A stretch of DNA of 21,436 nt from Streptomyces sp. NBC_01408. Its GTDB lineage: Bacteria > Actinomycetota > Actinomycetes > Streptomycetales > Streptomycetaceae. A model generated the notes under the pieces. It was given only the letters and a program-made list of their open reading frames with translations, was not told the origin of the DNA and did not search any database. Made by a program: the position numbers and the translations under genes. Positions 1 through 21,436 of the stretch are shown piece by piece (positions within the stretch are counted from its first letter, which is position 1; every line of letters begins with the position of its first letter). Location: contig NZ_JAPEPJ010000006.1 of the NCBI RefSeq assembly GCF_026340255.1, positions 1-21,436 of the forward strand, in the 5' to 3' direction.

Positions 1-1
1 C

Positions 2-2464
2 ACCGTCACCGACGGCAGACTGCTGGCCCCGGCGCTCTCCCCGGCCGGGCGCACCGCCTGGCTGTCCGCCGCTCCCGGACCACGCAAGGCCGAGGTCCTG
101 AGCCTCTACGCGTACGGGCGCGAGGTCGCCCTCGACGGGGACCTCGCGCCCGCGCCCCCGCGCTGGATCGGCGACGACCGCCTGCTGATCACGCTCGACG
201 GCCGGTTCCAGGTGATCCGTCCCCACACGGACACCACCGGCCAGGAGATCCCCCTCGACGCCACCCTTGAGGTGACCCGCCCCCGCTACCGGGCCAAGGA
301 GTACGTCCTGGAGGCCGAGCGGAGCCGTCCGGTCCACGGCATCCACCTGCCCGCCCTCTCACCCGACGGCCGCAGCGTGGCCTTCGCCGCGCTCAACGCC
401 CTGTGGACCGCACCCGTCACCGGGGGAGCACCGCGCAGACTCGTCCAGGCCCCCGCCACCGCCTACCTCCAGGGACCGGTGTGGACCCCGGACGGCCGGG
501 CGCTGCTCTACACCGACGACCGCGACGGGCTGAACACCGTACGCCGCCGGGAGCTCACCGGCGGCGGGGAGAGCGTCCTCGCCCCGGGCGGCCGCGTCTA
601 CGGAGTGCTCTCGCCCGACGGCGGACGGCTCGCCGCCCTCGACCTCGCCGGGCGGCTCCTCGTCCGCGACCTCGCGACCGGCACGGAGACCCCCCTGGTC
701 ACCGCCCTCGGCGGCGGAGGCCTGCCCGGCCCGCCCAGCTGGTCCCCCGACGGCCGGTACCTCGCGCTCTGCGACCGCAACCGCCTCAGCCGGCGCTTCC
801 GCGAGGGCTACAACCTCATCCGGATCGTCGACACCCGCACCGGCACCGCCCGCCTCTACGCGCTCGCCCCGCACGCCTCCCTCGCGGACCGCTACGCCTC
901 CGGCCCCGTCTGGTCGCCCGACGGCCGGTTCCTGGCCTGCGTCAGCGAGTCCGCCCTGTGGCTGCTCCCCGTCACCCCCGACGGCACCCCCGCCGGCCCC
1001 GCCCGCCGCGTGACCGGCGACGACGAGCCCGCCGACCACCCCTCCTGGTCCGGGGACTCCCGCACCCTGCTCTACCAGTCCGGCGCCCGGCTGCGCCTGC
1101 TCGCCCTCGACGACGCGGGCGTACCCGCCGCGGCCCCCCGGACCGTGCCGATCGCCCTGAGCTACCGCCGCCCCAGCCCCGTCGACACCGTCGTGCACGC
1201 CGGACTGCTGTGGGACGCCACCGGGTCCCCACCCCGCGCCGACGTCGACATCCTCGTCAGCGACGGCCGGATCACCGCTGTCGAACCCCACCGGCCCGGC
1301 CGCCGCGCCGCCCGCACCGTGGACGCCTCCACCGGCACGGTCCTGCCGGGCCTGTGGGACTCCCACGTCCACCCGTACCCCTACACCTACGGGGCCCGCC
1401 AGGGCCTCCTGCACCTGGCCTACGGAGTCACCACCGCCGTCTCCCTCGGCGGCTCCGCCTACGAACAGGCCCGGCTGCGCGAGGACATCAGGGCCGGCCT
1501 GCTGGCCTCGCCCCGGCTGTTGGCCGGCGGTGAGCTCCTCGACGGCTCCCGCGTCGCCTACAGCATGGGGCGCGCCCACCGCACCCCGGCCGGCTTCGCC
1601 CGCTCACTGGCCAGGGCCGAGGCGCTGGACTGGGACTTCGTCAAGACCTATGTCCGCGCCCCGTACGCGCACATGGCCGAAGCCGCCCGCTTCGCGCACG
1701 AGCGGATCGGCGTCCTGGCCGGCTCCCACCTGTGCGCCACCGGCATCCAGTCCGGCCAGGACCTGACCACGCACCTGGTGGCGACCGAGCGCGCCGAGTG
1801 CGGGCACGGTGCGACCCCGCAGGGCCACACCTACCAGGACACGCTGGAGGTGTACGCACGGCGCGGACTCGACCTGATCGCCACGCCCTTCACGGCCCTG
1901 CCGCTGATCGGCGCCGATCCGGCGGTCGCCGCCGACTCCCGGGTCACGGCCCTGATGCCGCCCTGGGACGTGGCGGCCGTCCGCACCGCGGCCGCGACCG
2001 CGCCGAGCGCCGAACAGCAGGCCGTACTGGAACGCGAGGTCGCCGCCTACCGGGGCGTCCTCGCGGGCGGCGGACGCCTCGCCCTGGGCACCGACGCGCC
2101 CCTCACCCCGGTCGGCCTCCACCTGCACCTGGCCCTGCGCGCCCTGCACCAGTACGGGCTGACCGCGGCGGAGGCACTCACCACCGTCACCCGCACCCCG
2201 GCCCGGGTCTTCGGTGTCGCGGACCGCCTCGGCACGGTCGAACCGGGCCGGATCGCCGACCTCACCCTCGTCGACGGCGACCCCTTCACCGACTTCGCCG
2301 ACCTGATCCGCGTACGGGCGACCGTACGCGGCGGAACCGTGTGGGAACGGGCCGTCCTGGAAACCGCGTTCACCCGGACCGCGGCCCCCGCCGCGCCGGC
2401 CGGCGACTGGCGCGACGTCCTGCACCAGATGCTGCGCGACGGCTGCTGCACCGCCGGTGCCTAG
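2..2464 (+). CDS. TolB-like beta-propeller/amidohydrolase, 3' part (cut by window start)
   Basis: This is residues 247-1066 of the protein complete at 9982-13182. The frame is open from base 2 and base 1 finishes the preceding codon, so the gene is cut by the window edge and not truncated biologically. The ATG at about 212 is internal, because PD40 repeats continue upstream of it in frame. The segment holds the later WSPDGR-type propeller repeats and the entire amidohydrolase domain with its HVH metal motif (His codons at 1364 and 1370). It ends with a Cys-rich tail (GCCTAG) and is followed by a hairpin plus T-tract at 2515-2530. Confidence 0.9.
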   Translation, partial: TVTDGRLLAPALSPAGRTAWLSAAPGPRKAEVLSLYAYGREVALDGDLAPAPPRWIGDDRLLITLDGRFQVIRPHTDTTGQEIPLDATLEVTRPRYRAKEYVLEAERSRPVHGIHLPALSPDGRSVAFAALNALWTAPVTGGAPRRLVQAPATAYLQGPVWTPDGRALLYTDDRDGLNTVRRRELTGGGESVLAPGGRVYGVLSPDGGRLAALDLAGRLLVRDLATGTETPLVTALGGGGLPGPPSWSPDGRYLALCDRNRLSRRFREGYNLIRIVDTRTGTARLYALAPHASLADRYASGPVWSPDGRFLACVSESALWLLPVTPDGTPAGPARRVTGDDEPADHPSWSGDSRTLLYQSGARLRLLALDDAGVPAAAPRTVPIALSYRRPSPVDTVVHAGLLWDATGSPPRADVDILVSDGRITAVEPHRPGRRAARTVDASTGTVLPGLWDSHVHPYPYTYGARQGLLHLAYGVTTAVSLGGSAYEQARLREDIRAGLLASPRLLAGGELLDGSRVAYSMGRAHRTPAGFARSLARAEALDWDFVKTYVRAPYAHMAEAARFAHERIGVLAGSHLCATGIQSGQDLTTHLVATERAECGHGATPQGHTYQDTLEVYARRGLDLIATPFTALPLIGADPAVAADSRVTALMPPWDVAAVRTAAATAPSAEQQAVLEREVAAYRGVLAGGGRLALGTDAPLTPVGLHLHLALRALHQYGLTAAEALTTVTRTPARVFGVADRLGTVEPGRIADLTLVDGDPFTDFADLIRVRATVRGGTVWERAVLETAFTRTAAPAAPAGDWRDVLHQMLRDGCCTAGA

Positions 2465-2514
2465 TGCTGTCACCGCCCGCGGGGAGGTACCGGGGGTGTC
2501 CGCCGCGTGATCGC

Positions 2515-2530
2515 CCCGGCGGCCGGGTTT
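2515..2530 (+). terminator. Hairpin with T-tract after amidohydrolase gene
   Basis: CCCGG-CGG-CCGGG followed immediately by TTT forms a 5-bp stem with a 3-nt loop, 50 bp after the amidohydrolase stop. It lies between two convergent genes, where a terminator is expected. The stem is short, so confidence is moderate. Confidence 0.45.
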
Positions 2531-2534
2531 CCGG

Positions 2535-6711: not shown

Positions 6712-8316
6712 TCACTCCGGCCGGGGCGCCGCCGGGAGGCGGAGCACCAGGCGGGCGCCGTGCGCGTGGTCCTCGGCCGTCAGCGTCCCGCCGTGATGGG
6801 CCGTCAAGTCCCGGGCGATGGCGAGGCCGAGGCCCGCACCGCCGTGGTCGCGGCTGCGGGAGTCGTCGAGGCGGGTGAAGCGTTCGAAGACCCGCTCCCG
6901 GTCGGCCGCGGGGATGCCCGGGCCGTCGTCGGTGACCTCCAGTACGGCGGTACGGGGCCCCGGGCCGTTCGTGGTGCGCAGGGTGACGACCACGCGCCGG
7001 TCGGCGTAACGCTGCGCGTTGTCGAGGAGGTTGGTGACGACACGGCTGAGCCACAGGGCGCTGCCGGTGATCCCGACCCCGGCTTCGAGGTCCAGGTGTA
7101 CGGGAACCCTGTCGCCGAGCCGGGTGTCCACGGCTTCGCATACCAGGGCAGTCAGGTCCAGTTCCACCGCGGCCACGGGCTGGGCGGCGTCGATCCGGGC
7201 GAGCAGCAGCAGATCGGCCGCGAGGTGCTGGAGCCGTTCGATGTCCTGGAGGGCCCCGCCGATCAGCTCGGGCCACAGCTCCGGGTCCTGGACGGCGAGA
7301 GCCACTTCCAGCTGCGTGCGCAGGACGGTGATGGGGCTGCGCAGTTCGTGCGAGGCGTCGGCGATGAACTGCCGCTGGCGGACCCCGGAGGCCTCCAGCC
7401 GGTCCAGGGTGGCGTTCATGGTCTGCGCCAGGCGGGCGACCTCGTCGTGGGTGGCCGGCACCGGCACCCGGCGGTGCAGGTCGCGGTCGGTGATCCCGGC
7501 GACCTCGGCCCGGATCGCCTCCACCGGTCTCAGCGCCCGGCCGGTGACCCGCCAGGTCACGAGGGCGACGGTGGCCAGGAGCAGGGGCATCCCGATGACG
7601 AGGGCGGCGGTGGTGGTGTCGTCGACGGCGTCCGCGTCGCGCAGCGAGGCCCCGGCGTAGACGATGGCCGGGCCGTTCGGGGTGTCGGTGATGACCTGGA
7701 CGACCCGCTGGCGGTGGCCGCCGCCCAGGGGACGGACCTTCCAGGTGTGGAAGCGGGTCCCGGGCACCTCGGGGCCCGCGGGCGGGAACGCGGGTACGCC
7801 GATGAGGTTGGGGCTGGCCAGCAGGACGCGGCCGTCGGCGCCCACCACCTGGACGAACTCGACACCGCGGGCGACCAGCCGCGCGCGGTCGAGCCGCCCG
7901 GCCGCGGCGAGCTGGGCCACGGCGTCGGCCTGCCGCCGCGCGTCGTCCTCGGCGTTGCGCAGCAGATTGGCCTCGAGCAGCCCCAGCAGGGCGAACGAGG
8001 CGAGCGACAGGGCCGCGGCCACCACCACGCTCGCACCCACGGTGGCCCGCGCCCGGACGGTGGTGGGCCACAGCCGCCTCAGCACGGGCCATCGCTCCAG
8101 GGCGGCGCCCGCGGCCGCGCGCAAGGCGGCGGCGGGGCGGCTGCGCAGGAGACGGCCGCGCAGGAGACGGGCGCGGACGAGGAGATCGTGCAGGGTCCGG
8201 TCGTGCAGGGTCCGGTCGTACAGGATCCGGTCGTCCAGGATCCGCTCCCGGCAGAGGCGGCCGGGGAAGAGGTGGTCGCGGAACAGGCGGTCGCGGCCGC
8301 GGGGACGCTCAGCCAC
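6712..8316 (-). CDS. Sensor histidine kinase of an OmpR-type two-component system (534 aa)
   Basis: Starts at GTG 8316, inside the response regulator's last codons (GTGGCTGA overlap of 8 nt), which implies translational coupling; the longer open frame to 8424 is antisense to neighbours. Residues 9-58 are ten 5-residue repeats (see separate entry). The first membrane segment is at about 92-114, an extracytoplasmic sensor region at about 115-235, the second membrane segment at about 236-255 and HAMP at 256-309. The dimerisation helix has the H-box SHELRSPI with phospho-acceptor His323. The ATPase domain has NLLDN at 429-433, DDGPGIP at 463-469 and GGAGLGLA at 492-499. All catalytic motifs are intact. 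Known role: ATP-dependent autophosphorylation and transfer to the cognate regulator. In this unit the regulator has lost its receiver domain, so the kinase has no local partner. The signal sensed is not evident. Confidence 0.9.
   Translation of the reverse strand: MAERPRGRDRLFRDHLFPGRLCRERILDDRILYDRTLHDRTLHDLLVRARLLRGRLLRSRPAAALRAAAGAALERWPVLRRLWPTTVRARATVGASVVVAAALSLASFALLGLLEANLLRNAEDDARRQADAVAQLAAAGRLDRARLVARGVEFVQVVGADGRVLLASPNLIGVPAFPPAGPEVPGTRFHTWKVRPLGGGHRQRVVQVITDTPNGPAIVYAGASLRDADAVDDTTTAALVIGMPLLLATVALVTWRVTGRALRPVEAIRAEVAGITDRDLHRRVPVPATHDEVARLAQTMNATLDRLEASGVRQRQFIADASHELRSPITVLRTQLEVALAVQDPELWPELIGGALQDIERLQHLAADLLLLARIDAAQPVAAVELDLTALVCEAVDTRLGDRVPVHLDLEAGVGITGSALWLSRVVTNLLDNAQRYADRRVVVTLRTTNGPGPRTAVLEVTDDGPGIPAADRERVFERFTRLDDSRSRDHGGAGLGLAIARDLTAHHGGTLTAEDHAHGARLVLRLPAAPRPE
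8143..8292 (-). repeat. Ten 15-bp/5-residue repeats in kinase N-terminus
   Basis: Residues 9-58 of the kinase read as ten consecutive pentads of the form x-R-L/I/T-L/F-x: DRLFR, DHLFP, GRLCR, ERILD, DRILY, DRTLH, DRTLH, DLLVR, ARLLR, GRLLR. At DNA level the most alike copies are four near-identical 15-mers at about 8186-8245 (gtgcagggtccggtc and variants) and two at about 8147-8176. The stretch precedes the first membrane segment and would be cytosolic. Slippage of the 15-mer would change length in frame. Confidence 0.75.
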
Positions 8317-8455
8317 CGTCGGCCGCCAGCCGGTATCCGGCCCCGCGTACGGTCTCCAGCGCGGCGCGGCCGAACGGCGCGTCGATCTTGCGGCGTACGG
8401 CACTGACGTGGACCTCGACGACATTGGGATCGCCGTCGAAAGCGCTGTCCCACAC
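8309..8455 (-). pseudogene. OmpR/PhoB-family response regulator, C-terminal 48 codons only
   Basis: The last 48 codons encode VWDSAFDGDPNVVEVHVSAV, then RRKIDAPFGRAALETVRGAG, then YRLAADGG. This is the recognition helix and C-terminal hairpin of a winged-helix Trans_reg_C domain. The receiver domain with its phospho-accepting Asp, and the first part of the DNA-binding domain, are missing. Upstream of the VW codons the sequence turns abruptly into the antisense of a penicillin acylase gene. The frame stays open to 8632, but those residues look like shadow translation, so a functional protein is unlikely. The stop overlaps the kinase start, showing that the operon was once regulator-kinase. The break is sharp, with no decay inside the remaining part, which fits a recent rearrangement. 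Confidence 0.88.
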
Positions 8456-8475
8456 CTGGCCTACCCGGACGTCCT
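8450..8475. other. Rearrangement joint: response regulator 3' part / acylase 3' part
   Basis: On the minus side, response-regulator homology runs up to the VW codons at 8450-8455 and then stops. On the plus side, acylase-like coding is clear from YPDVLLPW (8462 onwards). Both genes lack their 5' ends and are cut at the same place in opposite orientation. That is the structure expected where the right end of a duplicated or excised segment is joined to its left end. No transposon end or attachment-site repeat is visible; a few bases of microhomology cannot be assessed without the parental sequences. Confidence 0.75.
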
Positions 8476-9001
8476 CCTGCCGTGGCTCTTCCTCGTGCCC
8501 CGGGTCGCGATGGGGCTCAACCACCTCCTGGCGGACTCCGAGCCCCTCGGCGCGGACCGTACGCAGCTGCTGCGGGCCGCTGTCGAGGACGCCGCGGCGC
8601 AGCCAGAGGCCGGCCCCTGGGGAGCTCTGCACCGGCTCTCCCCGTGGACGGCACTGCCCCGGGACAGCGACACGGCCTCGTGGCCCGCCCTAGCCGGCGA
8701 CTCCGAGTGCGTCCTGTCCACGACCCGCATCCCGGACGTCGAAGGCCACCTCACGCGCGGTCCCGCCGCACGCTACGTATGGGACCTGGCCGACCGCGAC
8801 AACAGCCTGTGGGTCGTCCCCCTCGGCGCCTCGGGGGCTGACGGGCCCCACCACCACGACCAGCTGCCCCTGTGGGAACGCGGCGAACTCGTGCCCGTGA
8901 TCACGGACTGGAGCCTGCTACGCAAGGAGGGCGGTGCACCGGGGCCCGCCGAGGAAGTCAGCGGCGGACGCGGGGCATACCCAGGCCCGTCCGGGAATTG
9001 A
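8459..9001 (+). pseudogene. Penicillin acylase family protein, C-terminal fragment (about 180 codons)
   Basis: Plus-strand frame resembling the C-terminus of penicillin acylase/amidase (Ntn-hydrolase) beta chains. It has YPDVLLPWLFLVPRVAMGL, a helical segment (GADRTQLLRAAVEDA), and the conserved end RYVWDLADRDNSLWVVPLGA followed by HHHDQLPLWERGELVPVITD. The signal peptide, alpha chain, spacer, the N-terminal catalytic Ser of the beta chain and most of the beta chain are missing. The family is usually 700-850 aa, so only about a quarter remains and it cannot be catalytic. The frame is open upstream only as antisense of the kinase and regulator. Translation from such an upstream start is improbable. 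The natural stop is preserved. Confidence 0.82.
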
Positions 9002-9021
9002 TCTCGCGCTGTCATCTGCCA

Positions 9022-9056
9022 CCGCCGAATCAGAAAGGCGGCAGTGCCTCAGGCAC
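9022..9056. terminator. Two small adjacent hairpins between convergent genes
   Basis: CCGCC (9022-9026) pairs with GGCGG (9037-9041), and GTGCC-TCA-GGCAC (9044-9056) forms a second hairpin. They lie 20-55 bp past the acylase stop and at the end of the minus-strand remnant. Position fits a two-way terminator, but stems are only 5 bp and no T-tract follows. Confidence 0.3.
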
Positions 9057-9438
9057 CGAGGTAGGGCACAAAATTGTCCGGCTCCAACAAGGGGTCGACC
9101 CACGCTGCGTGAGCAAATGCTGGACGCTGCGACATCCGACCGCCCACGTCATCGACAAGCGTCGTCCTCACCCGAGGAGTGAGATGAATCCGACAACGCA
9201 GACCCTCCACCTCGACGACGCCGCAGTCACCCGCATCGACGTCCAGCGCCGCGTCCGGGGCCACACTCACCGTCCACCCGGCCTTGGTGGCGAGATACAT
9301 CCACACCTCGAGAGCGCGCACGTAAGACGGCGGTCCCAAGCCGCCATGTCGGCGACCAGATCCCGGACGGCACGGCGTCCTCATGGGTGGCGCAGGCCTC
9401 TGCGATGCGCAGGGGCTGGCCTCCTTCCGTTCTTGCAA
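9049..9438 (-). pseudogene. Unrecognised minus-strand coding remnant, probably frameshifted
   Basis: The last 83 codons (ATG at 9300) read MYLATKAGWTVSVAPDAALD, then VDAGDCGVVEVEGLRCRIHL, and end EPDNFVPYLGA. The amino-acid composition is balanced, which suggests real coding. Upstream, in the same frame, the translation turns into Pro/Arg/Gly-rich shadow. Protein-like pieces appear in the other two minus frames: AVRDLVADMAAWDRRLTCAL at about 9310-9375 and RIAEACATHEDAV at about 9371-9410. Joined end to end these would make a plausible helical N-terminus, so I infer one or two frameshifts. I do not recognise the family. An intact 83-aa gene starting at 9300 (weak GAGG ribosome binding site) is the alternative. 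Confidence 0.4.
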
Positions 9439-9539
9439 CGGTCAGAGAGGGAGCGAAGTTGATGCGCTCTGTGTTGACGGACGGATCGTTCCAGTGGGCC
9501 TCCTTCTGCTGCGGTCATCCGTTCGCCGAGGAGGTCGTG

Positions 9540-9839: not shown

Positions 9840-9911
9840 CGCTGCGCGTGGCCGGCTGACGGCCGTCGTGGCCCCGGGCCGGCGGCGGCGCCCGTGGACC
9901 GCAGCCCGTTG

Positions 9912-9934
9912 CCCCCGCCGGGGGTTGATCGTTT
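9912..9934 (+). terminator. Weak hairpin before the amidohydrolase gene
   Basis: CCCCC-GCC-GGGGG (9912-9924) is followed by ttgatcgttt. It could insulate the amidohydrolase gene from upstream transcription. The stem is 5 bp and the T-tract is interrupted. I see nothing else in 9840-9981 apart from the candidate ribosome binding site GAAGG at 9974-9978. Confidence 0.35.
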
Positions 9935-9981: not shown

Positions 9982-12900
9982 GTGGTCGGGGTGCGAGTCG
10001 CGCGCAGGACGGTTCTGCAGGCGGGCGGGGCCGGCGCCCTCGCCGCACTGCTCGGACACCCCCCGGCCCGGGCCGCGGCCCAGGCCGGTTCCCCGGGTCC
10101 GGCGGCCGGGGAACCGCTCCGGTTGCGCTTCACCCGCGCGACCAACGGGGCCGCGACCGCCACCGCCACCGGGGACCGCGTCGTCGCCGAGGTGCAGAAC
10201 GTCCTCTGGTCTCTGCCCCCGGACGGCTCGCCCGCCACGCAGCTCACCCCGCCCGATCTGGAGCCCGGCCGCCCGGTGTTCTCCCCGGACGGCCGCCACC
10301 TCGCGATGAGCGCCTACCGCGGGGGCGCCTTCCACATCTGGGTGATGGGCGCGGACGGATCGGGTCTGCGCAGGCTCACCGACGGCCCGTTCGACCACCG
10401 TGCCCCCGCCTGGTCGCCCGACGGCTGCAGCCTCGCCTTCTGCTCCGAACGGGGCGGCGACCCGGTGGCGGGCAGCCCGTACCGGATCTGGGCGGTCGCC
10501 CTCACCGGCGGCGGCCCGCGCCGGCTGACGGGCCTGCCCGGGCAGCCCGGGCCAGGCCAGGAAGGCGACTGGGAGGACTTCGACCCGGTCTGGTCGCCGG
10601 ACGGTACCCGCGTGCTGTTCGTCCGCGGCACCGCCACGGGGGAGACCCTGACGGCCCGGACCCTCGCATCGGTCGCCGTCGCCGCGGCCGACGCCGGCGG
10701 GCCCGTACGGATCGAACACACCGTCACCGACGGCAGACTGCTGGCCCCGGCGCTCTCCCCGGCCGGGCGCACCGCCTGGCTGTCCGCCGCTCCCGGACCA
10801 CGCAAGGCCGAGGTCCTGAGCCTCTACGCGTACGGGCGCGAGGTCGCCCTCGACGGGGACCTCGCGCCCGCGCCCCCGCGCTGGATCGGCGACGACCGCC
10901 TGCTGATCACGCTCGACGGCCGGTTCCAGGTGATCCGTCCCCACACGGACACCACCGGCCAGGAGATCCCCCTCGACGCCACCCTTGAGGTGACCCGCCC
11001 CCGCTACCGGGCCAAGGAGTACGTCCTGGAGGCCGAGCGGAGCCGTCCGGTCCACGGCATCCACCTGCCCGCCCTCTCACCCGACGGCCGCAGCGTGGCC
11101 TTCGCCGCGCTCAACGCCCTGTGGACCGCACCCGTCACCGGGGGAGCACCGCGCAGACTCGTCCAGGCCCCCGCCACCGCCTACCTCCAGGGACCGGTGT
11201 GGACCCCGGACGGCCGGGCGCTGCTCTACACCGACGACCGCGACGGGCTGAACACCGTACGCCGCCGGGAGCTCACCGGCGGCGGGGAGAGCGTCCTCGC
11301 CCCGGGCGGCCGCGTCTACGGAGTGCTCTCGCCCGACGGCGGACGGCTCGCCGCCCTCGACCTCGCCGGGCGGCTCCTCGTCCGCGACCTCGCGACCGGC
11401 ACGGAGACCCCCCTGGTCACCGCCCTCGGCGGCGGAGGCCTGCCCGGCCCGCCCAGCTGGTCCCCCGACGGCCGGTACCTCGCGCTCTGCGACCGCAACC
11501 GCCTCAGCCGGCGCTTCCGCGAGGGCTACAACCTCATCCGGATCGTCGACACCCGCACCGGCACCGCCCGCCTCTACGCGCTCGCCCCGCACGCCTCCCT
11601 CGCGGACCGCTACGCCTCCGGCCCCGTCTGGTCGCCCGACGGCCGGTTCCTGGCCTGCGTCAGCGAGTCCGCCCTGTGGCTGCTCCCCGTCACCCCCGAC
11701 GGCACCCCCGCCGGCCCCGCCCGCCGCGTGACCGGCGACGACGAGCCCGCCGACCACCCCTCCTGGTCCGGGGACTCCCGCACCCTGCTCTACCAGTCCG
11801 GCGCCCGGCTGCGCCTGCTCGCCCTCGACGACGCGGGCGTACCCGCCGCGGCCCCCCGGACCGTGCCGATCGCCCTGAGCTACCGCCGCCCCAGCCCCGT
11901 CGACACCGTCGTGCACGCCGGACTGCTGTGGGACGCCACCGGGTCCCCACCCCGCGCCGACGTCGACATCCTCGTCAGCGACGGCCGGATCACCGCTGTC
12001 GAACCCCACCGGCCCGGCCGCCGCGCCGCCCGCACCGTGGACGCCTCCACCGGCACGGTCCTGCCGGGCCTGTGGGACTCCCACGTCCACCCGTACCCCT
12101 ACACCTACGGGGCCCGCCAGGGCCTCCTGCACCTGGCCTACGGAGTCACCACCGCCGTCTCCCTCGGCGGCTCCGCCTACGAACAGGCCCGGCTGCGCGA
12201 GGACATCAGGGCCGGCCTGCTGGCCTCGCCCCGGCTGTTGGCCGGCGGTGAGCTCCTCGACGGCTCCCGCGTCGCCTACAGCATGGGGCGCGCCCACCGC
12301 ACCCCGGCCGGCTTCGCCCGCTCACTGGCCAGGGCCGAGGCGCTGGACTGGGACTTCGTCAAGACCTATGTCCGCGCCCCGTACGCGCACATGGCCGAAG
12401 CCGCCCGCTTCGCGCACGAGCGGATCGGCGTCCTGGCCGGCTCCCACCTGTGCGCCACCGGCATCCAGTCCGGCCAGGACCTGACCACGCACCTGGTGGC
12501 GACCGAGCGCGCCGAGTGCGGGCACGGTGCGACCCCGCAGGGCCACACCTACCAGGACACGCTGGAGGTGTACGCACGGCGCGGACTCGACCTGATCGCC
12601 ACGCCCTTCACGGCCCTGCCGCTGATCGGCGCCGATCCGGCGGTCGCCGCCGACTCCCGGGTCACGGCCCTGATGCCGCCCTGGGACGTGGCGGCCGTCC
12701 GCACCGCGGCCGCGACCGCGCCGAGCGCCGAACAGCAGGCCGTACTGGAACGCGAGGTCGCCGCCTACCGGGGCGTCCTCGCGGGCGGCGGACGCCTCGC
12801 CCTGGGCACCGACGCGCCCCTCACCCCGGTCGGCCTCCACCTGCACCTGGCCCTGCGCGCCCTGCACCAGTACGGGCTGACCGCGGCGGAGGCACTCACC

Positions 12901-13182
12901 ACCGTCACCCGCACCCCGGCCCGGGTCTTCGGTGTCGCGGACCGCCTCGGCACGGTCGAACCGGGCCGGATCGCCGACCTCACCCTCGTCGACGGCGACC
13001 CCTTCACCGACTTCGCCGACCTGATCCGCGTACGGGCGACCGTACGCGGCGGAACCGTGTGGGAACGGGCCGTCCTGGAAACCGCGTTCACCCGGACCGC
13101 GGCCCCCGCCGCGCCGGCCGGCGACTGGCGCGACGTCCTGCACCAGATGCTGCGCGACGGCTGCTGCACCGCCGGTGCCTAG
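9982..13182 (+). CDS. Tat-exported TolB-like beta-propeller/amidohydrolase fusion (1066 aa)
   Basis: The only complete copy of this gene, spanning the boundary of the two repeat units. The N-terminus is a Tat signal: twin arginines at residues 8-9 (VARRTVLQAG), a hydrophobic stretch AGALAALLG and an A-rich cleavage region near 30-35, so export to the cell surface is predicted. Residues about 95-610 carry roughly ten PD40/TolB-type repeats (FSPDGR, WSPDGC, WSPDGT, LSPDGR, WTPDGR and others), a beta-propeller. Residues about 640-1050 are an amidohydrolase barrel. Likely metal ligands are His701 and His703 (HVH), Lys794, His822, His848 and Asp944 (GTDAP). Known for the superfamily: metal-dependent hydrolysis of amides or related bonds, including imidazolonepropionase and dipeptidase types; the substrate is unknown. 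GTG 9982 has GAAGG 3 nt upstream; GTG 9991 (1063 aa) is equally possible. Confidence 0.88.
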   Translation: MVGVRVARRTVLQAGGAGALAALLGHPPARAAAQAGSPGPAAGEPLRLRFTRATNGAATATATGDRVVAEVQNVLWSLPPDGSPATQLTPPDLEPGRPVFSPDGRHLAMSAYRGGAFHIWVMGADGSGLRRLTDGPFDHRAPAWSPDGCSLAFCSERGGDPVAGSPYRIWAVALTGGGPRRLTGLPGQPGPGQEGDWEDFDPVWSPDGTRVLFVRGTATGETLTARTLASVAVAAADAGGPVRIEHTVTDGRLLAPALSPAGRTAWLSAAPGPRKAEVLSLYAYGREVALDGDLAPAPPRWIGDDRLLITLDGRFQVIRPHTDTTGQEIPLDATLEVTRPRYRAKEYVLEAERSRPVHGIHLPALSPDGRSVAFAALNALWTAPVTGGAPRRLVQAPATAYLQGPVWTPDGRALLYTDDRDGLNTVRRRELTGGGESVLAPGGRVYGVLSPDGGRLAALDLAGRLLVRDLATGTETPLVTALGGGGLPGPPSWSPDGRYLALCDRNRLSRRFREGYNLIRIVDTRTGTARLYALAPHASLADRYASGPVWSPDGRFLACVSESALWLLPVTPDGTPAGPARRVTGDDEPADHPSWSGDSRTLLYQSGARLRLLALDDAGVPAAAPRTVPIALSYRRPSPVDTVVHAGLLWDATGSPPRADVDILVSDGRITAVEPHRPGRRAARTVDASTGTVLPGLWDSHVHPYPYTYGARQGLLHLAYGVTTAVSLGGSAYEQARLREDIRAGLLASPRLLAGGELLDGSRVAYSMGRAHRTPAGFARSLARAEALDWDFVKTYVRAPYAHMAEAARFAHERIGVLAGSHLCATGIQSGQDLTTHLVATERAECGHGATPQGHTYQDTLEVYARRGLDLIATPFTALPLIGADPAVAADSRVTALMPPWDVAAVRTAAATAPSAEQQAVLEREVAAYRGVLAGGGRLALGTDAPLTPVGLHLHLALRALHQYGLTAAEALTTVTRTPARVFGVADRLGTVEPGRIADLTLVDGDPFTDFADLIRVRATVRGGTVWERAVLETAFTRTAAPAAPAGDWRDVLHQMLRDGCCTAGA

Positions 13183-13232
13183 TGCTGTCACCGCCCGCGG
13201 GGAGGTACCGGGGGTGTCCGCCGCGTGATCGC

Positions 13233-13248
13233 CCCGGCGGCCGGGTTT
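13233..13248 (+). terminator. Hairpin with T-tract, copy 2
   Basis: Same CCCGG-CGG-CCGGG-TTT structure as at 2515-2530, after the complete amidohydrolase gene. Confidence 0.45.
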
Positions 13249-13252
13249 CCGG

Positions 13253-13561
13253 TCAGGAGGCGGGCCGCCGGGCACGGGCGGGGTGGCTCAGGGCCTGCTG
13301 GCCTCCCGAGGCCAGCATCCGGACCTCGCCCTGGTCGCTGATCTCGGCGCGGATGATCCCGGTGTCGTCGGCGTAGACCGGATGGCCGCCCGGACCCGTC
13401 CGCTCCGTGCGCGTGACGACCACGGTGTCCGCGGACTCCGCCGAACCGTCGTCCTCGAACACCAACTCATAGCGATCCTCACGGTCCTCGCCCACCACGT
13501 ACCTCCAGATCCCCGCCGTCGCGCGGACCGCGCCGAAGGGCCGCGTACCAACGTGCCCCAT
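13253..13561 (-). CDS. Small DUF6296-like protein, copy 2
   Basis: Identical to the 102-aa protein at 2535-2843, with the same start choice and the same convergent position behind the amidohydrolase gene. No differences seen. Confidence 0.7.
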   Translation of the reverse strand: MGHVGTRPFGAVRATAGIWRYVVGEDREDRYELVFEDDGSAESADTVVVTRTERTGPGGHPVYADDTGIIRAEISDQGEVRMLASGGQQALSHPARARRPAS

Positions 13562-13633
13562 GGCCCCCGACGACAGCACGCGCCACGCGGCACCGGGACC
13601 CGACCGGGGGACACTCCCCGCCCCGGAATCCTG

Positions 13634-13662
13634 TCGACGGCATCCGTCCCCCCGACTAGCCT
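13634..13662 (+). promoter_or_regulatory. Leaderless promoter of DUF4180, copy 2
   Basis: Same TCGACG - 17 bp - TAGCCT arrangement as at 2916-2944, with the -10 ending 7 nt before the ATG. Confidence 0.6.
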
Positions 13663-13669
13663 CGGCCCC

Positions 13670-14050
13670 ATGAGCACCCTGCAGACGATCCACGGCGTAC
13701 CCGTCCTGATATGCGGCTCCGAGGGCGAGAGGATCAGCGGTGAAGGCGACGTCATGGACCTCATCGGCAACGCCATGTACCAGGGGGTCCAGTGGATCGC
13801 CATCCCCGCCGAGCGCTTCGACGAGACCTTCTTCCGGCTGAGCACCCGGGTCGCCGGTGACGTCGTCCAGAAGTTCGTGAACTACCGCGTGGGGCTCGCC
13901 GTCCTCGGCGACATCTCCCGCCACACGACGAACAGTCCGGCACTGCGCGACTTCGTCCGCGAGTGCAACCGCGGCCGCCAGACCTGGTTCCTCACCGACG
14001 CCGCGGAACTGCACGACCGTCTCGGGCCCCCGGCCGCTTCAGAGGCCTGA
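13670..14050 (+). CDS. DUF4180 domain protein, copy 2
   Basis: Identical to the 126-aa protein at 2952-3332, including the leaderless start and the 12-bp overlap with the convergent methyltransferase gene. Confidence 0.9.
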   Translation: MSTLQTIHGVPVLICGSEGERISGEGDVMDLIGNAMYQGVQWIAIPAERFDETFFRLSTRVAGDVVQKFVNYRVGLAVLGDISRHTTNSPALRDFVRECNRGRQTWFLTDAAELHDRLGPPAASEA

Positions 14051-14833
14051 CCCGCGCCGGACCTGGAGCACATCAGGCGTCAGATCGTCCTCCAGGGCGA
14101 GGCCGGCCGCCGTGAGTTCCTCGGCGAGGGCCCTCCGGGTCAGCGGCCACAGGAGGAAGGACTCCCGGGCATGGCGCAGCATCCGGCCCTGACGGCACAC
14201 CAGGTACGTGTAGTCGTAGCGGATCCGGCCGTCCTCGGCGCGCTGGGTGAGCTGCCCGCGGTAGGTGTCGATGCCGAGGCGGACCTCACCCAGCCCGCGC
14301 CGGACGGGCTGCGCGGGGAGACCGGCCGGTGGACGGTCCAGGAAGAGCAGCCCGCCGGGCACCAGCAGATCGGCCAGCACCCGCCACAGCGCGCGCCGCT
14401 CGGCGGGCGGCAGGCAGGGCACCATCCGCAGGCACACGGCCAGGTCGGCCTGGCCGCGCAGCGACAGTTCGAGGGCGGAGCAGGCGTGCACCGTCACCCG
14501 GTCCCCGGCGGAGCCGCCCGCCGGCGGGTGCAGCCGGGAGAGCAGGACGGCCCGCATGGCGGCCGCCGGCTCGACGGCGTGCACCGGTACGGTCGACGCG
14601 CCGATCAGTACCTCGGTGACCAGGCCGGTACCCGCGCCGACCTCGACGATCCCGACCCGGGCGGCAGCCGCCGGAGCCGCCAGGGCGAGCGCGTGCCGGT
14701 GGTAGGCCCGGGCGTGCAACAGGTCGTAGAACTCGGCCGACACGGCGTACGCCTCACCGGGACGCCCGCCGTGGGCACAGCGCTCCGACGGCGGCGCGTG
14801 CCCGTCCGGTCGTAAGTCCCCCCGTATGTCCAT
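14039..14833 (-). CDS. Class I SAM-dependent methyltransferase, copy 2
   Basis: Identical to the 264-aa protein at 3321-4115; motif I GIVEVGAGTG is intact and the same start ambiguity applies (ATG at 14872 is the alternative). Confidence 0.85.
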   Translation of the reverse strand: MDIRGDLRPDGHAPPSERCAHGGRPGEAYAVSAEFYDLLHARAYHRHALALAAPAAAARVGIVEVGAGTGLVTEVLIGASTVPVHAVEPAAAMRAVLLSRLHPPAGGSAGDRVTVHACSALELSLRGQADLAVCLRMVPCLPPAERRALWRVLADLLVPGGLLFLDRPPAGLPAQPVRRGLGEVRLGIDTYRGQLTQRAEDGRIRYDYTYLVCRQGRMLRHARESFLLWPLTRRALAEELTAAGLALEDDLTPDVLQVRRGSGL

Positions 14834-14905
14834 CCGGCCATCATGGCCGTACGAGCCCCGGCCCACGAGCACGCGATCCGGCCACGGGGCCGACCGCGCT
14901 GCCCG

Positions 14906-14947
14906 CCGCCCCGCCCCGCCCGGGCAGGCCGGGGCGGGGCGGGGCGG
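14906..14947 (-). terminator. Perfect 16-bp GC hairpin, copy 2
   Basis: Same 16-bp stem and 10-nt loop as at 4188-4229, just past the second EF-G stop codon. Confidence 0.7.
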
Positions 14948-14953
14948 ACGGTG

Positions 14954-17038
14954 CTAGCGGCTCAGCACCACCGCGGCGACCGCAGCCGGTACCGGCGCGA
15001 GGGCCGCGGGCCGGGCCGTGAAGGTGCCCCGGCCCTGGGTCCGGCCGCGCAGCCGGGACGCGTAGCCGAAGAGCTCGGCCAGTGGCACGGCCGCGGTGAC
15101 CACCGCCGTGCCGGACCCGGACGTGGAGCCCGAGACCCGGCCGCGGCGGGCCGCGAGGTCACCCAGCACCGCTCCCACACCGTCCTCGGGGACGGTCACC
15201 GTGACCTCCACCACCGGCTCCAGGAGCTCCACCGTGCTCGCGCGCAGCGCCTCGCGCAGCGCGAACCGGCCCGCCGCCCGGAACGCCAGCTCCGAGGAGT
15301 CCTTGGAGTGGGTGGCCCCGTCGGTGAGCGTCACCCGCAGCCCCGTCACCGGATACCCGCCGAGCGGTCCCTCGGCGAGCGCGTCCCGGCAGCCGGCCTC
15401 CACGGCGCGCGCGTACTCCTGCGGCACGCGGCCGCCGACGACCGACGACCGGAACACGAAGCCCGCAGCCTCCGCTGCCTCCTCCAGCGGTTCGACGTCG
15501 ATGACGACGTGCGCGAACTGGCCCGCGCCACCGTCCTGTTTGACGTGCCGGTAGACGAGGCCGGTCACCCCGCGTACGACGGTCTCCCGGTAGGAGACCT
15601 GCGGACGCCCGACCACGACCTCCACCCCCTGGCCGCGGCGGATCTTCTCCACTGCGACCTCCAGGTGGAGTTCGCCCATCCCCGACAGCACGGTCTGGCC
15701 GGTTTCCCCGTCGGACCGCACCACCAGCGAGGGGTCCTCCTCGACGAGGCGCGCCAGGGCCGCCGCGAGCCGGCCGGTGTCGCTGCTCCGGCGTGCCTCG
15801 ACCGCCACCGACACCACCGGTTCGGCCACCGACGGCGGTTCGAGGACCAGCGGAGCCCCGGGGGCGCACAGGGTCGTACCCGCCCGGGCGGCCTTCAGCC
15901 CGATCACGGCGACGATGTCACCCGCGACCGCCTCCTCCCGTTCCTCGTGCCGGTCGGCCTGTACCCGCAGGATCCGGCCGACCCGCTCCGTGCGGCCCGT
16001 CGCGGCGTCCAGTACGGACTCGCCCTTGCGGAGCGTGCCCGCGTAGACCCGTACGTACGTGAGCCGTCCGGTCGGTGTCGCCGTCACCTTGAACGCCAGG
16101 GCCGTGAACGGCGCCGCCGGGTCGGGGGCCCGCTCCTGCTCCGCGCCGCCGGCCTCGCCCCGTACCGGTGGCATGTCGGCGGGCGACGGCAGGTACGCGA
16201 GGACCGCGTCCAGCAACGGCTCGATCCCGCGGTTGCGGTACGCCGAGCCGCACAGCACCACCACGCCGTCCCCGCGCAGCGTCAGCTCCCGCAGGGCGCG
16301 CGCCAGCGTCGGCCCGGTCACCGCCGAAGCCGCACAGAACTCCTCCAGCGCGTCCGCGTGCAGCTCGGCCACCGTCTCCTCCAGGAGCCGGCGCCGCCGC
16401 TGCGCCTCCTCGCGCAGCTCCTCGGGCACCGGTGCGGTCTCGTAGGTCTCGCCGCCCGCCCGCCAGAGCAGCGCGCGCATCCCCAGCAGGTCCACGACCC
16501 CGGTGAAACCGTCCTCCCGGCCGATGGGCAGCTGGACCACCAGCGGGACGACGCCCAGCCGCTCGCGGATCGAGGCGACGGCCGTGTCGAGGTCGGCGCC
16601 CGCCCGGTCGAGCTTGTTGACGAAGGCGATCCGCGGAACCCCGTGCCGGTCGGCCTGCCGCCACACCGACTCGCTCTGCGGCTCGACCCCGGCGACGGCG
16701 TCGAACACCGCGACCGCCCCGTCCAGGACGCGCAGGGACCGTTCGACCTCGTCCGAGAAGTCGACGTGGCCCGGGGTGTCGATCAGGTTGACGCGGTGCC
16801 CGGCCCAGGCGCAGCTCACGGCCGCGGCGAAGATGGTGATGCCGCGGTCGCGCTCCTGGGCGTCGAAGTCGGTGACGGTCGTTCCGTCGTGTACCTCGCC
16901 CCGCTTGTGGATGGCGCCGGTCGCGAACAGGATGCGTTCGGTGATGGTGGTCTTGCCCGCGTCGACGTGGGCGAGGATGCCCAGATTGCGGACGGCGGTG
17001 GGGGACGTGCCGGCGAGCGGTCGTCGGATGGTGCGCAT
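14954..17038 (-). CDS. Elongation factor G paralogue, copy 2
   Basis: Identical to the 694-aa EF-G at 4236-6320, with all GTPase motifs and the same leader. If the tandem arrangement is real, the cell carries at least a doubled dose of this translation factor together with its own promoter region. Confidence 0.93.
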
Positions 17039-17083
17039 GGCCCGAGGCCTTTCGAACGATGAGGAGGCAGGCAGCGCGATTCC

Positions 17084-17156
17084 CGGGACGGCACACCGGT
17101 CGGCCCCGCCCGTCCCGCCGGACCGGCCCCGGCTGCCGGGGGCGCAGGGCCGGGGC
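17084..17156 (-). promoter_or_regulatory. Possible folded EF-G leader RNA, copy 2
   Basis: Same pair of 8-bp inverted repeats as at 6366-6438, between the short ORF and EF-G. I see no gene in the rest of 17039-17240. Confidence 0.3.
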
Positions 17157-17240
17157 AGGGGGGCACAAGGGCAGCGGGAGGAACGGAAACCGAAGGAGCG
17201 TCACGGGCATGCGGTGACGGCCGCGCAGCCGGCACCGGGC

Positions 17241-17309
17241 CTAGCGAGACACCGGGATCACGTCGTACCGGGACGGGGGAACGAAGGCGGCGGTGTGGCG
17301 CATGCACAT
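17241..17309 (-). CDS. 22-codon upstream ORF in EF-G leader, copy 2
   Basis: Identical to the short ORF at 6523-6591, with the same AGAAGGGG ribosome binding site (17320-17327). Confidence 0.5.
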   Translation of the reverse strand: MCMRHTAAFVPPSRYDVIPVSR

Positions 17310-17375
17310 GGCCCGGTTCCCCTTCTCTTCACTCGGCATCAGGCGCGCGGTGCCCTGTCGGCAGCGCGTGCGGCG

Positions 17376-17415
17376 AGTCTAGGGAAGAGGACCCGGCGGG
17401 GCACGGTATTTATTT
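17376..17415 (-). promoter_or_regulatory. Candidate EF-G promoter, copy 2
   Basis: Same TAGACT -10 and upstream A/T tract as at 6658-6697. Confidence 0.4.
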
Positions 17416-17429
17416 CCGGCTGCGCGGCC

Positions 17430-19034
17430 TCACTCCGGCCGGGGCGCCGCCGGGAGGCGGAGCACCAGGCGGGCGCCGTGCGCGTGGTCCTCGGCCGTCA
17501 GCGTCCCGCCGTGATGGGCCGTCAAGTCCCGGGCGATGGCGAGGCCGAGGCCCGCACCGCCGTGGTCGCGGCTGCGGGAGTCGTCGAGGCGGGTGAAGCG
17601 TTCGAAGACCCGCTCCCGGTCGGCCGCGGGGATGCCCGGGCCGTCGTCGGTGACCTCCAGTACGGCGGTACGGGGCCCCGGGCCGTTCGTGGTGCGCAGG
17701 GTGACGACCACGCGCCGGTCGGCGTAACGCTGCGCGTTGTCGAGGAGGTTGGTGACGACACGGCTGAGCCACAGGGCGCTGCCGGTGATCCCGACCCCGG
17801 CTTCGAGGTCCAGGTGTACGGGAACCCTGTCGCCGAGCCGGGTGTCCACGGCTTCGCATACCAGGGCAGTCAGGTCCAGTTCCACCGCGGCCACGGGCTG
17901 GGCGGCGTCGATCCGGGCGAGCAGCAGCAGATCGGCCGCGAGGTGCTGGAGCCGTTCGATGTCCTGGAGGGCCCCGCCGATCAGCTCGGGCCACAGCTCC
18001 GGGTCCTGGACGGCGAGAGCCACTTCCAGCTGCGTGCGCAGGACGGTGATGGGGCTGCGCAGTTCGTGCGAGGCGTCGGCGATGAACTGCCGCTGGCGGA
18101 CCCCGGAGGCCTCCAGCCGGTCCAGGGTGGCGTTCATGGTCTGCGCCAGGCGGGCGACCTCGTCGTGGGTGGCCGGCACCGGCACCCGGCGGTGCAGGTC
18201 GCGGTCGGTGATCCCGGCGACCTCGGCCCGGATCGCCTCCACCGGTCTCAGCGCCCGGCCGGTGACCCGCCAGGTCACGAGGGCGACGGTGGCCAGGAGC
18301 AGGGGCATCCCGATGACGAGGGCGGCGGTGGTGGTGTCGTCGACGGCGTCCGCGTCGCGCAGCGAGGCCCCGGCGTAGACGATGGCCGGGCCGTTCGGGG
18401 TGTCGGTGATGACCTGGACGACCCGCTGGCGGTGGCCGCCGCCCAGGGGACGGACCTTCCAGGTGTGGAAGCGGGTCCCGGGCACCTCGGGGCCCGCGGG
18501 CGGGAACGCGGGTACGCCGATGAGGTTGGGGCTGGCCAGCAGGACGCGGCCGTCGGCGCCCACCACCTGGACGAACTCGACACCGCGGGCGACCAGCCGC
18601 GCGCGGTCGAGCCGCCCGGCCGCGGCGAGCTGGGCCACGGCGTCGGCCTGCCGCCGCGCGTCGTCCTCGGCGTTGCGCAGCAGATTGGCCTCGAGCAGCC
18701 CCAGCAGGGCGAACGAGGCGAGCGACAGGGCCGCGGCCACCACCACGCTCGCACCCACGGTGGCCCGCGCCCGGACGGTGGTGGGCCACAGCCGCCTCAG
18801 CACGGGCCATCGCTCCAGGGCGGCGCCCGCGGCCGCGCGCAAGGCGGCGGCGGGGCGGCTGCGCAGGAGACGGCCGCGCAGGAGACGGGCGCGGACGAGG
18901 AGATCGTGCAGGGTCCGGTCGTGCAGGGTCCGGTCGTACAGGATCCGGTCGTCCAGGATCCGCTCCCGGCAGAGGCGGCCGGGGAAGAGGTGGTCGCGGA
19001 ACAGGCGGTCGCGGCCGCGGGGACGCTCAGCCAC
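17430..19034 (-). CDS. Sensor histidine kinase, copy 2
   Basis: Identical to the 534-aa kinase at 6712-8316: GTG start overlapping the regulator stop, two membrane segments, HAMP, H-box and ATPase motifs all present. Confidence 0.9.
   Translation of the reverse strand: MAERPRGRDRLFRDHLFPGRLCRERILDDRILYDRTLHDRTLHDLLVRARLLRGRLLRSRPAAALRAAAGAALERWPVLRRLWPTTVRARATVGASVVVAAALSLASFALLGLLEANLLRNAEDDARRQADAVAQLAAAGRLDRARLVARGVEFVQVVGADGRVLLASPNLIGVPAFPPAGPEVPGTRFHTWKVRPLGGGHRQRVVQVITDTPNGPAIVYAGASLRDADAVDDTTTAALVIGMPLLLATVALVTWRVTGRALRPVEAIRAEVAGITDRDLHRRVPVPATHDEVARLAQTMNATLDRLEASGVRQRQFIADASHELRSPITVLRTQLEVALAVQDPELWPELIGGALQDIERLQHLAADLLLLARIDAAQPVAAVELDLTALVCEAVDTRLGDRVPVHLDLEAGVGITGSALWLSRVVTNLLDNAQRYADRRVVVTLRTTNGPGPRTAVLEVTDDGPGIPAADRERVFERFTRLDDSRSRDHGGAGLGLAIARDLTAHHGGTLTAEDHAHGARLVLRLPAAPRPE
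18861..19010 (-). repeat. Pentad repeats in kinase N-terminus, copy 2
   Basis: Same ten 5-residue repeats as at 8143-8292. The copy number of the 15-mer is the same in both units, although such repeats are prone to slippage. This supports a very recent duplication or an artefact. Confidence 0.75.
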
Positions 19035-19173
19035 CGTCGGCCGCCAGCCGGTATCCGGCCCCGCGTACGGTCTCCAGCGCGGCGCGGCCGAACGGCGCGT
19101 CGATCTTGCGGCGTACGGCACTGACGTGGACCTCGACGACATTGGGATCGCCGTCGAAAGCGCTGTCCCACAC
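19027..19173 (-). pseudogene. Response regulator C-terminal fragment, copy 2
   Basis: Identical to 8309-8455: only the end of the winged-helix domain remains before the sequence changes to antisense of the acylase fragment. Confidence 0.88.
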
Positions 19174-19193
19174 CTGGCCTACCCGGACGTCCT
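19168..19193. other. Rearrangement joint, copy 2
   Basis: Same joint as at 8450-8475. Its presence in both copies means that neither copy in this window abuts native flanking DNA. Confidence 0.75.
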
Positions 19194-19719: not shown

Positions 19720-19739
19720 TCTCGCGCTGTCATCTGCCA

Positions 19740-20257: not shown

Positions 20258-20557
20258 ATGACTGGTTCCCTGCCCGTTGCTGCCCAGGCGGATCTGCGCC
20301 GTCAGCCCGTGGAAGACGTGCTGGAGCGCGTGGAAGCGGCCCTGCGTGTGGAATTGGATCGGCAGGCACTGGTGCGCAAGCGCCGTTCCTTGGGCGGTCG
20401 TACGGAGCGGGGTACATGGGTGCGCATCGAGCGGCGGGGGTTCTAGCGGATCGGCGCGCAGGGCTGGAACGGGACCGAGGCCGTCACCGCCAACAGGGGA
20501 CTCGCACCCGAGGCCGACGCCCCGCAGGACCTCGTCGACACCGTCCTGTGCAAGTGA
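20258..20557 (+). pseudogene. Broken gene with in-frame stop, copy 2
   Basis: Identical to 9540-9839, including the TAG (20444-20446). The stop is therefore fixed in both copies and is not a scattered sequencing error. Confidence 0.5.
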
Positions 20558-20629
20558 CGCTGCGCGTGGCCGGCTGACGGCCGTCGTGGCCCCGGGCCGG
20601 CGGCGGCGCCCGTGGACCGCAGCCCGTTG

Positions 20630-20652
20630 CCCCCGCCGGGGGTTGATCGTTT
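20630..20652 (+). terminator. Weak hairpin before amidohydrolase, copy 2
   Basis: Same CCCCC-GCC-GGGGG stem as at 9912-9934. Confidence 0.35.
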
Positions 20653-20699
20653 GGGTGGCTGACGGGTCGGTACGGGCGGTCATCGAAACGCGAAGGCGA

Positions 20700-21436
20700 G
20701 TGGTCGGGGTGCGAGTCGCGCGCAGGACGGTTCTGCAGGCGGGCGGGGCCGGCGCCCTCGCCGCACTGCTCGGACACCCCCCGGCCCGGGCCGCGGCCCA
20801 GGCCGGTTCCCCGGGTCCGGCGGCCGGGGAACCGCTCCGGTTGCGCTTCACCCGCGCGACCAACGGGGCCGCGACCGCCACCGCCACCGGGGACCGCGTC
20901 GTCGCCGAGGTGCAGAACGTCCTCTGGTCTCTGCCCCCGGACGGCTCGCCCGCCACGCAGCTCACCCCGCCCGATCTGGAGCCCGGCCGCCCGGTGTTCT
21001 CCCCGGACGGCCGCCACCTCGCGATGAGCGCCTACCGCGGGGGCGCCTTCCACATCTGGGTGATGGGCGCGGACGGATCGGGTCTGCGCAGGCTCACCGA
21101 CGGCCCGTTCGACCACCGTGCCCCCGCCTGGTCGCCCGACGGCTGCAGCCTCGCCTTCTGCTCCGAACGGGGCGGCGACCCGGTGGCGGGCAGCCCGTAC
21201 CGGATCTGGGCGGTCGCCCTCACCGGCGGCGGCCCGCGCCGGCTGACGGGCCTGCCCGGGCAGCCCGGGCCAGGCCAGGAAGGCGACTGGGAGGACTTCG
21301 ACCCGGTCTGGTCGCCGGACGGTACCCGCGTGCTGTTCGTCCGCGGCACCGCCACGGGGGAGACCCTGACGGCCCGGACCCTCGCATCGGTCGCCGTCGC
21401 CGCGGCCGACGCCGGCGGGCCCGTACGGATCGAACA
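20700..21436 (+). CDS. TolB-like/amidohydrolase, 5' part (cut by window end)
   Basis: Residues 1-245 and two bases of codon 246 of the protein complete at 9982-13182: Tat signal, then the first PD40 repeats. Base 1 of the window supplies the third base of codon 246, so joining the window's end to its start restores the gene exactly. This supports a circular or indefinitely tandem source. Confidence 0.9.
   Translation, partial: MVGVRVARRTVLQAGGAGALAALLGHPPARAAAQAGSPGPAAGEPLRLRFTRATNGAATATATGDRVVAEVQNVLWSLPPDGSPATQLTPPDLEPGRPVFSPDGRHLAMSAYRGGAFHIWVMGADGSGLRRLTDGPFDHRAPAWSPDGCSLAFCSERGGDPVAGSPYRIWAVALTGGGPRRLTGLPGQPGPGQEGDWEDFDPVWSPDGTRVLFVRGTATGETLTARTLASVAVAAADAGGPVRIE

Follow-up and report, generated by a model that had tools for sequence, protein, structure and literature searches.

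How does a contig come to consist of nothing but the same DNA written twice, and in what form did that DNA exist in the cell? The window analysed here (the whole stretch of 21,436 bp from Streptomyces sp. NBC_01408, N count 0) equals 2 x 10,718 bp, has no flank on either side and is very probably an entire contig rather than a cut-out. An earlier note on this DNA had described two perfect head-to-tail copies, and self-comparison bore this out. Position i compared with i+10718 gave 0 mismatches in all 10,718 pairs, and no other shift between 1 and 10,718 exceeded 45% identity when each 7th base was sampled. Inside one unit there was no directly repeated 20-base word (2 repeats were found with 18-base words and 6 with 16-base words), and 10,718 bp is therefore the true unit, not one built up from shorter nested repeats. 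Chance cannot account for a perfect 10.7-kb repeat.

The note's further claim, that the window lacks unique flanks and its end runs on into its start, also holds. The amidohydrolase frame (9559-13182) crosses the boundary 10718|10719 unbroken, so the contig ends are arbitrary cuts within a gene. The contig start falls in this frame, 8,458 bp from the recombination joint described below. The features of the unit, in window coordinates and with strand where one applies, are as follows.

8459..19176, no strand: complete 10,718-bp unit phased on the joint (period; alignment to S. xanthophaeus L001 and 12 acylase relatives)
8458..8459, no strand: novel joint, copy 1, response-regulator gene fused to penicillin-acylase gene with no insert seen (alignments to relatives)
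19176..19177, no strand: novel joint, copy 2, identical (period)
8459..9001, again 19177-19719, plus strand: penicillin acylase, C-terminal fragment, PF01804 profile 544-672 of 675 (profile scan)
9002..9984, no strand: lower-G+C patch with gene remnants, 65-71% G+C (500-bp windows; unit 74.6%)
9985..13182, partial copies 2-2464 and 20703-21434, plus strand: PD40 beta-propeller / amidohydrolase family protein, start uncertain (near 9985 assumed)
13253..13486, minus strand: DUF6296 protein, start approximate
13670..14050, plus strand: DUF4180 protein
14039..14872, minus strand: class I SAM-dependent methyltransferase
14954..17038, also 4236-6320, minus strand: elongation factor G paralogue, all EF-G domains, TIGR00484 above cut-off
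17430..19142, also 6712-8424, minus strand: sensor histidine kinase, HAMP-HisKA-HATPase
8138..8296, no strand: minisatellite with 15-bp period, about 120 bp longer than its counterpart in S. xanthophaeus, at the 5' end of the kinase ORF
8309..8458, again 19027-19176, minus strand: response regulator, C-terminal 49 codons only, Trans_reg_C profile 33-77 of 77 (profile scan)

The gene content of the unit is of chromosomal type, and the DNA probably comes from a streptomycete chromosome. Among named relatives with this layout the closest was S. xanthophaeus, whose scaffold L001 was collinear at 87-88% identity over window positions 9752-13173 and 13208-18868, and 94% identical over the final 171 bp before the joint (19006-19176); the minisatellite, the left 1.3 kb and a difference of 3.7 kb fall outside this collinearity of 87-94%. 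Orthologues of both halves of the unit sit 0.31-1.02 Mb from the contig ends in three genomes (G055, G270 and G200), and judging from these relatives the source segment probably lay in a chromosome arm. The genome survey that was used for the EF-G paralogue and the orthologue positions gave a tally of 314/314, after 78 of the 392 genomes were left unscored and dropped. By a codon-position G+C test with a strict cut-off, only the methyltransferase, EF-G and kinase ORFs were coding-like, the amidohydrolase ORF narrowly missing it. The database version of the amidohydrolase begins 46 codons downstream of the start assumed near 9985, and the true start of the kinase is probably about 110 codons later, because its relatives cover about 80% of the ORF. 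No biosynthetic gene cluster was seen in the unit, and tRNA and Rfam searches of the window returned no match.

At 8458|8459, and again at 19176|19177, the last 49 codons of the response regulator meet the C-terminal 181 codons of the acylase. An intact relative of the regulator, of 225 aa with Response_reg and Trans_reg_C domains, is present in the same S. xanthophaeus genome (L081, 7206-7883). Collinearity with L001 stops exactly at the joint base, beyond which the regulator gene of S. xanthophaeus runs on. On the other side, the stronger matches to full-length Streptomyces acylases mostly shared about 47-65% identity with the acylase fragment. Twelve acylase relatives were compared, the best 12 among the genomes matched by the acylase search, and in every one the codon preceding the joint was CCC or CCG and belonged to the acylase, whereas the window has regulator sequence there. 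With relatives standing in for the parents in the source strain, the bases common to both parents at the joint numbered 0 in six of the comparisons and 1 in the other six, and direct repeats at the unit ends were thus not found in any of the 12. The longest exact word common to these parents within 200 bp was 9-12 bp, a length taken without a shuffle control, and lay away from the joint. Only weak repeat pairs and no iteron array were seen between 8300 and 10100.

The sharing of 0-1 bp by the parents points to illegitimate, NHEJ-like joining, and the joint is probably neither repeat-mediated nor site-specific. Both the regulator and the acylase frames are open right to the joint, which suggests that the joining event was recent. 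The left parent arrangement can only be reconstructed, because the acylase fragment was found beside the homologous locus at none of 80 loci in relatives (E<=0.01; some loci had short flanks) and had no match in S. xanthophaeus.

Immediately to the right of the acylase fragment lies the low-G+C patch. No Pfam or PHROG family was found in the four ORFs scanned in it (9002-9984), and positions 9465-9771 were 81% identical to part of a hypothetical gene on a Streptomyces linear plasmid. Left of 9752 the patch gave no alignment to L001. Since the left 1.3 kb cannot be aligned there, the segment 8459-9751 could be an insert captured at the joint.

The scanned ORFs contained no member of a replication, partition, integrase or transposase family; the scans covered 9 and 8 window ranges with Pfam, 9 with NCBIfam and 10 with PHROGs, overlapping sets that took in few of the ORFs antisense to real genes. 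Features of a site-specific or transposable circle (ICE or IS circle) were likewise missing, with no recombinase or transposase in the scanned ORFs, no tRNA and no repeat at the joint. None of the PHROGs matches is a phage hallmark: the EF-G paralogue matched a translation elongation factor family, and the kinase matched six families. None of 50,697 phage records searched in near mode matched the unit, and in 72,556 plasmid records no place covered 80% of it; the plasmid matches listed fell on the acylase, the amidohydrolase, EF-G and short stretches within the 9002-9984 patch. In IMG/VR the joint had 0 exact matches, and the 9 pattern stretches for EF-G yielded 0 confirmed relatives. Plasmid, phage and ICE readings were rejected on two grounds, the lack of such genes in the ORFs scanned and of any match to the whole unit. 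Among the publications listed by the literature search, none named this 10,718-bp unit.

The earlier note had listed a circle or its dimer, a collapsed amplification and a circle written twice as possible sources and had chosen none of them. The located joint, a non-homologous head-to-tail joining of chromosomal DNA, favours the amplification and circle readings and speaks against an ordinary plasmid, and the factor of 2.000 is best assigned to assembly; the choice of cellular form is one that we infer. We favour, at about an even chance, a tandem-amplified segment of the chromosome arm (AUD/ADS-like) that the assembler collapsed into a circle and closed after two units, which would most likely be a kind of genome instability already known and not a new element. 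Illegitimate (NHEJ-like) recombination would have joined the end of a 10,718-bp chromosomal stretch, inside a response-regulator gene, to its start inside a penicillin-acylase gene. From the first tandem duplication or circle, a head-to-tail array of the AUD/ADS kind would then multiply past one or two copies, by RecA-dependent unequal recombination or by a replication fork trapped on the circle. With identical units in an array longer than the reads, the assembler would be unable to anchor the array in unique chromosome, and its output would be a flankless cyclic contig closed at two units. A collapsed array predicts a single contig record, and a protein 100% identical to the amidohydrolase over 96% of the 1065-aa query (P0003, 1019 aa) is listed from just one contig, 21,436 bp long. 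This one-contig argument is weak because the amidohydrolase alone carries it. The methyltransferase search (best 97%) and the kinase search (best 96% over 80%) did not list the window's own protein at 100%, so the database is an incomplete record of this contig.

The same contig is predicted by a free circle or by a library artefact. An extrachromosomal circle, of 10.7 kb or a true 21.4-kb dimer, made by the same end joining, lacking its own replicon and perhaps existing alongside an array, would have the same joint and no flank, its closure by the assembler would account for the integer number of units, and a circular template is an intermediate of amplification in the model quoted in the available part of PMC5869714. 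Because the scanned ORFs contain no replication or partition family, such a circle would be expected to be lost unless constantly rebuilt. No chromosomal donor copy was seen either (again the weak one-contig argument), and we regard the free circle as unlikely. A stronger form, in which natural high-copy circles of Streptomyces arm DNA arise by end joining without a replicon as a bacterial counterpart of ecDNA, is a long shot; if true, the circle could persist through the gene dosage of the EF-G paralogue and the truncated two-component locus. It is similarly doubtful that a sheared chromosomal fragment was ligated to itself while the library was prepared or the whole genome amplified, and that rolling-circle copying and doubled assembly followed. 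A joint between two arbitrary intragenic points with 0-1 bp in common is what blunt self-ligation would leave, and the single-contig record of the amidohydrolase fits as well, but one random self-ligated molecule should not attain assembly depth without rolling-circle amplification.

Two other explanations are very improbable. One is a genuine small circular plasmid or mobile element whose replication gene went unrecognised and which the assembler wrote out twice; it would account for the flankless circular topology, and doubled plasmid contigs are common. Against it stand the two genes cut at the joint and the phage, plasmid, gene-family and iteron searches described above. A plain two-copy tandem duplication in the chromosome, reported as a separate contig, agrees with the two copies that are written; unique flanks would however be expected, and the ends should fall at exactly 2.000 units inside a gene only if circular closure of the contig had taken place.

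Amplified units in Streptomyces are generally 5-100 kb and the chromosome arms are the classic site of their amplification. An AUD that is bounded by long direct repeats is termed 'type II'. As in AUD/ADS, the units here are identical and head-to-tail (2 units, 0 mismatches over 10,718 bp). In the available part of PMC5869714, the AUDs in the table rows listed were 14.2-32.8 kb and reached 325-820 copies, amplification was modelled as a replication fork trapped on a circular template, and amplification was lost in a recA mutant. Our unit resembles examples such as S. ambofaciens AUD90 in consisting of identical repeated DNA, probably from a chromosome arm, that lacks a recognised replicon, and in having a size of the same order; it differs in that the boundaries of AUD90, as described there, carry repeats of several hundred bp with >90% identity, compared to 0-1 bp at this joint. 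The joint itself is like the NHEJ joints of S. ambofaciens (PMC5869714) and S. avermitilis (PMC2920896), where unrelated sequences meet with minimal or no common bases. In the portions of these papers available, NHEJ scars had microhomology of 1-6 nt in 50% (PMC5869714), and non-homologous recombination seemed to play a part in almost every rearrangement previously studied in other Streptomyces (PMC2920896). Unlike those joints, which were deletions, repair scars and chromosome circularisations, this one creates a repeating unit.

The doubled layout also has a precedent. Small circular contigs written doubled are a common assembly outcome in the available accounts (PMC6966772, PMC12424758, PMC9980784), and the window, with exactly 2.000 units and a cut point unrelated to the joint, resembles long-read contigs in which a small circle appears twice at about 200% contiguity (PMC6966772, PMC12424758). 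The benchmarks in those accounts were plasmids and viruses, unlike a unit without a recognised replicon. A flankless, doubled contig that lacks a replicon may thus be read as an amplification and not filed as a plasmid, the sign being two truncated genes that meet within the circle. If the array is real, this would be a base-resolved joint of a Streptomyces amplification formed without end repeats, and it would bear on how amplification begins, by end joining rather than by recombination between repeats.

The earlier note's claim that the stretch consists of two perfect copies of a 10,718-bp unit was borne out: its length of 21,436 bp is 2 x 10,718, comparison of copy with copy gave 0 mismatches and no other period was found. 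Within one unit there were no directly repeated exact 20-bp words. The G+C content of the window is 74.6%. The amidohydrolase encoded here is 100% identical to database entry P0003 (1019 aa), which in the protein database comes from a single contig, 21,436 bp long; very probably, then, the window is that contig in full. The P0003 cluster has three member sequences, a number that would agree with one complete copy plus two truncated at the ends.

In each copy the end of a response-regulator gene meets the codons for the C-terminal portion of a penicillin acylase (8458|8459 and 19176|19177). Phased on this joint, the unit (8459-19176) contains, from left to right:

+ strand, penicillin-acylase C-terminal fragment
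9002-9984, lower-G+C patch with gene remnants
9985-13182, + strand, PD40/amidohydrolase protein
minus strand, DUF6296 protein
+ strand, DUF4180 protein
minus strand, SAM methyltransferase
14954-17038, - strand, EF-G paralogue
minus strand, histidine kinase
minus strand, response-regulator C-terminal fragment

The patch holds decayed gene pieces; its segment 9465-9771 shares 81% identity with part of a hypothetical gene on the linear plasmid of Streptomyces sp. NBC_01546. The histidine-kinase ORF has at its 5' end a minisatellite of 15-bp period (8138-8296) that exceeds the S. xanthophaeus version by ~120 bp.

Families for replication, partition, relaxase, integrase and transposase functions were absent from the window ranges scanned (Pfam, 9 and 8 ranges; NCBIfam, 9; PHROGs, 10), which overlap and mostly leave ORFs antisense to real genes outside. 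The window contained no tRNA or Rfam family. A near-match search with the unit found nothing among phage records, while 21 of 72,556 plasmid records match part of the unit and none covers 80% of it. The 80 loci retrieved for the amidohydrolase all come from actinomycetes and, going by record titles, almost all from Streptomyces; its nearest proteins are two at 95% and 90%, followed by that of S. xanthophaeus at 88%. The methyltransferase has a relative at 97%, and the kinase is 96% identical to that of S. xanthophaeus across 80% of the ORF. The 927-kb S. fungicidicus plasmid p1 carries, among unrelated neighbours, a gene related to the EF-G paralogue (81% over 2.0 kb); therefore the EF-G gene occurs on extrachromosomal replicons too.

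The best of the 80 loci compared, that of S. xanthophaeus NRRL B-5414 (L001), aligns to the window in two blocks at 87-88%, followed by 94% across the final 171 bp to base 8458, where the alignment ends. The regulator gene of S. xanthophaeus encodes 225 aa and has Response_reg as well as Trans_reg_C; what the window keeps is 49 codons with a partial Trans_reg_C (33-77 of 77). The right side of the joint opens with GCC TAC CCG of the acylase, and the codon preceding this point is CCC or CCG in 12 of 12 acylase relatives fetched. The base to the right is unlike the regulator parent, and the joint shares 0 bases in six of these relatives and 1 in the other six, although the acylases are only about 57-61% identical and the overlap in the actual strain may be slightly longer. 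We infer the left parent of the joint from such relatives. The joining event looks recent because both frames are open right up to the joint. The joint is of the kind that end joining leaves: NHEJ scars in S. ambofaciens are described as having microhomology of 1-6 nt in half of cases (PMC5869714), and joints in S. avermitilis as having little or none (PMC2920896).

The amidohydrolase was searched in eight genomes, of which seven matched (all but G079) and six of these also gave a place for the EF-G block (in G471 EF-G lacked a placement). In G055, G270 and G200 the two genes share one contig, each >8.6 Mb, but 6.7, 8.5 and 7.7 Mb separate them, and they lie towards opposite ends of the contig, at 0.31-1.02 Mb from these; G040 and G228 have them on separate contigs. 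In the S. xanthophaeus genome the DUF6296-to-regulator block begins 3.8 kb from the amidohydrolase. Because adjacency is common to the window and S. xanthophaeus while the genes are far apart in G055, G270 and G200, it is an older arm-to-arm rearrangement, separate from the regulator-acylase joint. A 3.7-kb stretch between amidohydrolase and DUF6296 in S. xanthophaeus (L001 13591-17317) is absent from the window (13174-13207). The left 1.3 kb of the unit did not align to S. xanthophaeus, and the acylase fragment had no match in that genome; it matches 124 of 199 genomes searched, many weakly. Rather than native flank, this left piece may be foreign to the locus and have been captured as an insert when the joint formed.

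Two broken genes joined within an otherwise ordinary chromosomal segment that has no recognised replicon are what one would see at the unit boundary of a tandem amplification, and equally of an excised circle. The contig is cut at a point that bears no relation to the joint, and it holds exactly 2.000 copies. Since random overlap of start and end would give an integer in about one case in 10,718, the assembly path presumably closed into a circle after two units. Some small plasmids are assembled at about 200% contiguity (PMC6966772), and the duplicated share of circular plasmids is given as a median of 71.4% (ONT) and 79.0% (HiFi) for metaMDBG and as 13.8% and 12.5% for metaFlye (PMC12424758). 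Since doubled small circles are common in assemblies, we do not take two as a biological number.

The chromosome arms of Streptomyces are known for tandem amplification, and for this reason we favour a head-to-tail array of a unit that probably stems from a chromosome arm. That just one contig is on record for the identical amidohydrolase also favours an array, but weakly, since the window's own 100% protein was absent among the matches in database searches with the methyltransferase and kinase. A free circle, which would carry the same boundary, seems less likely, and we give an artefact of the library a similar chance. If the unit is amplified as an array, the functional reason is a matter of speculation: it might lie in the dosage of the EF-G paralogue, or in a kinase without its own regulator.
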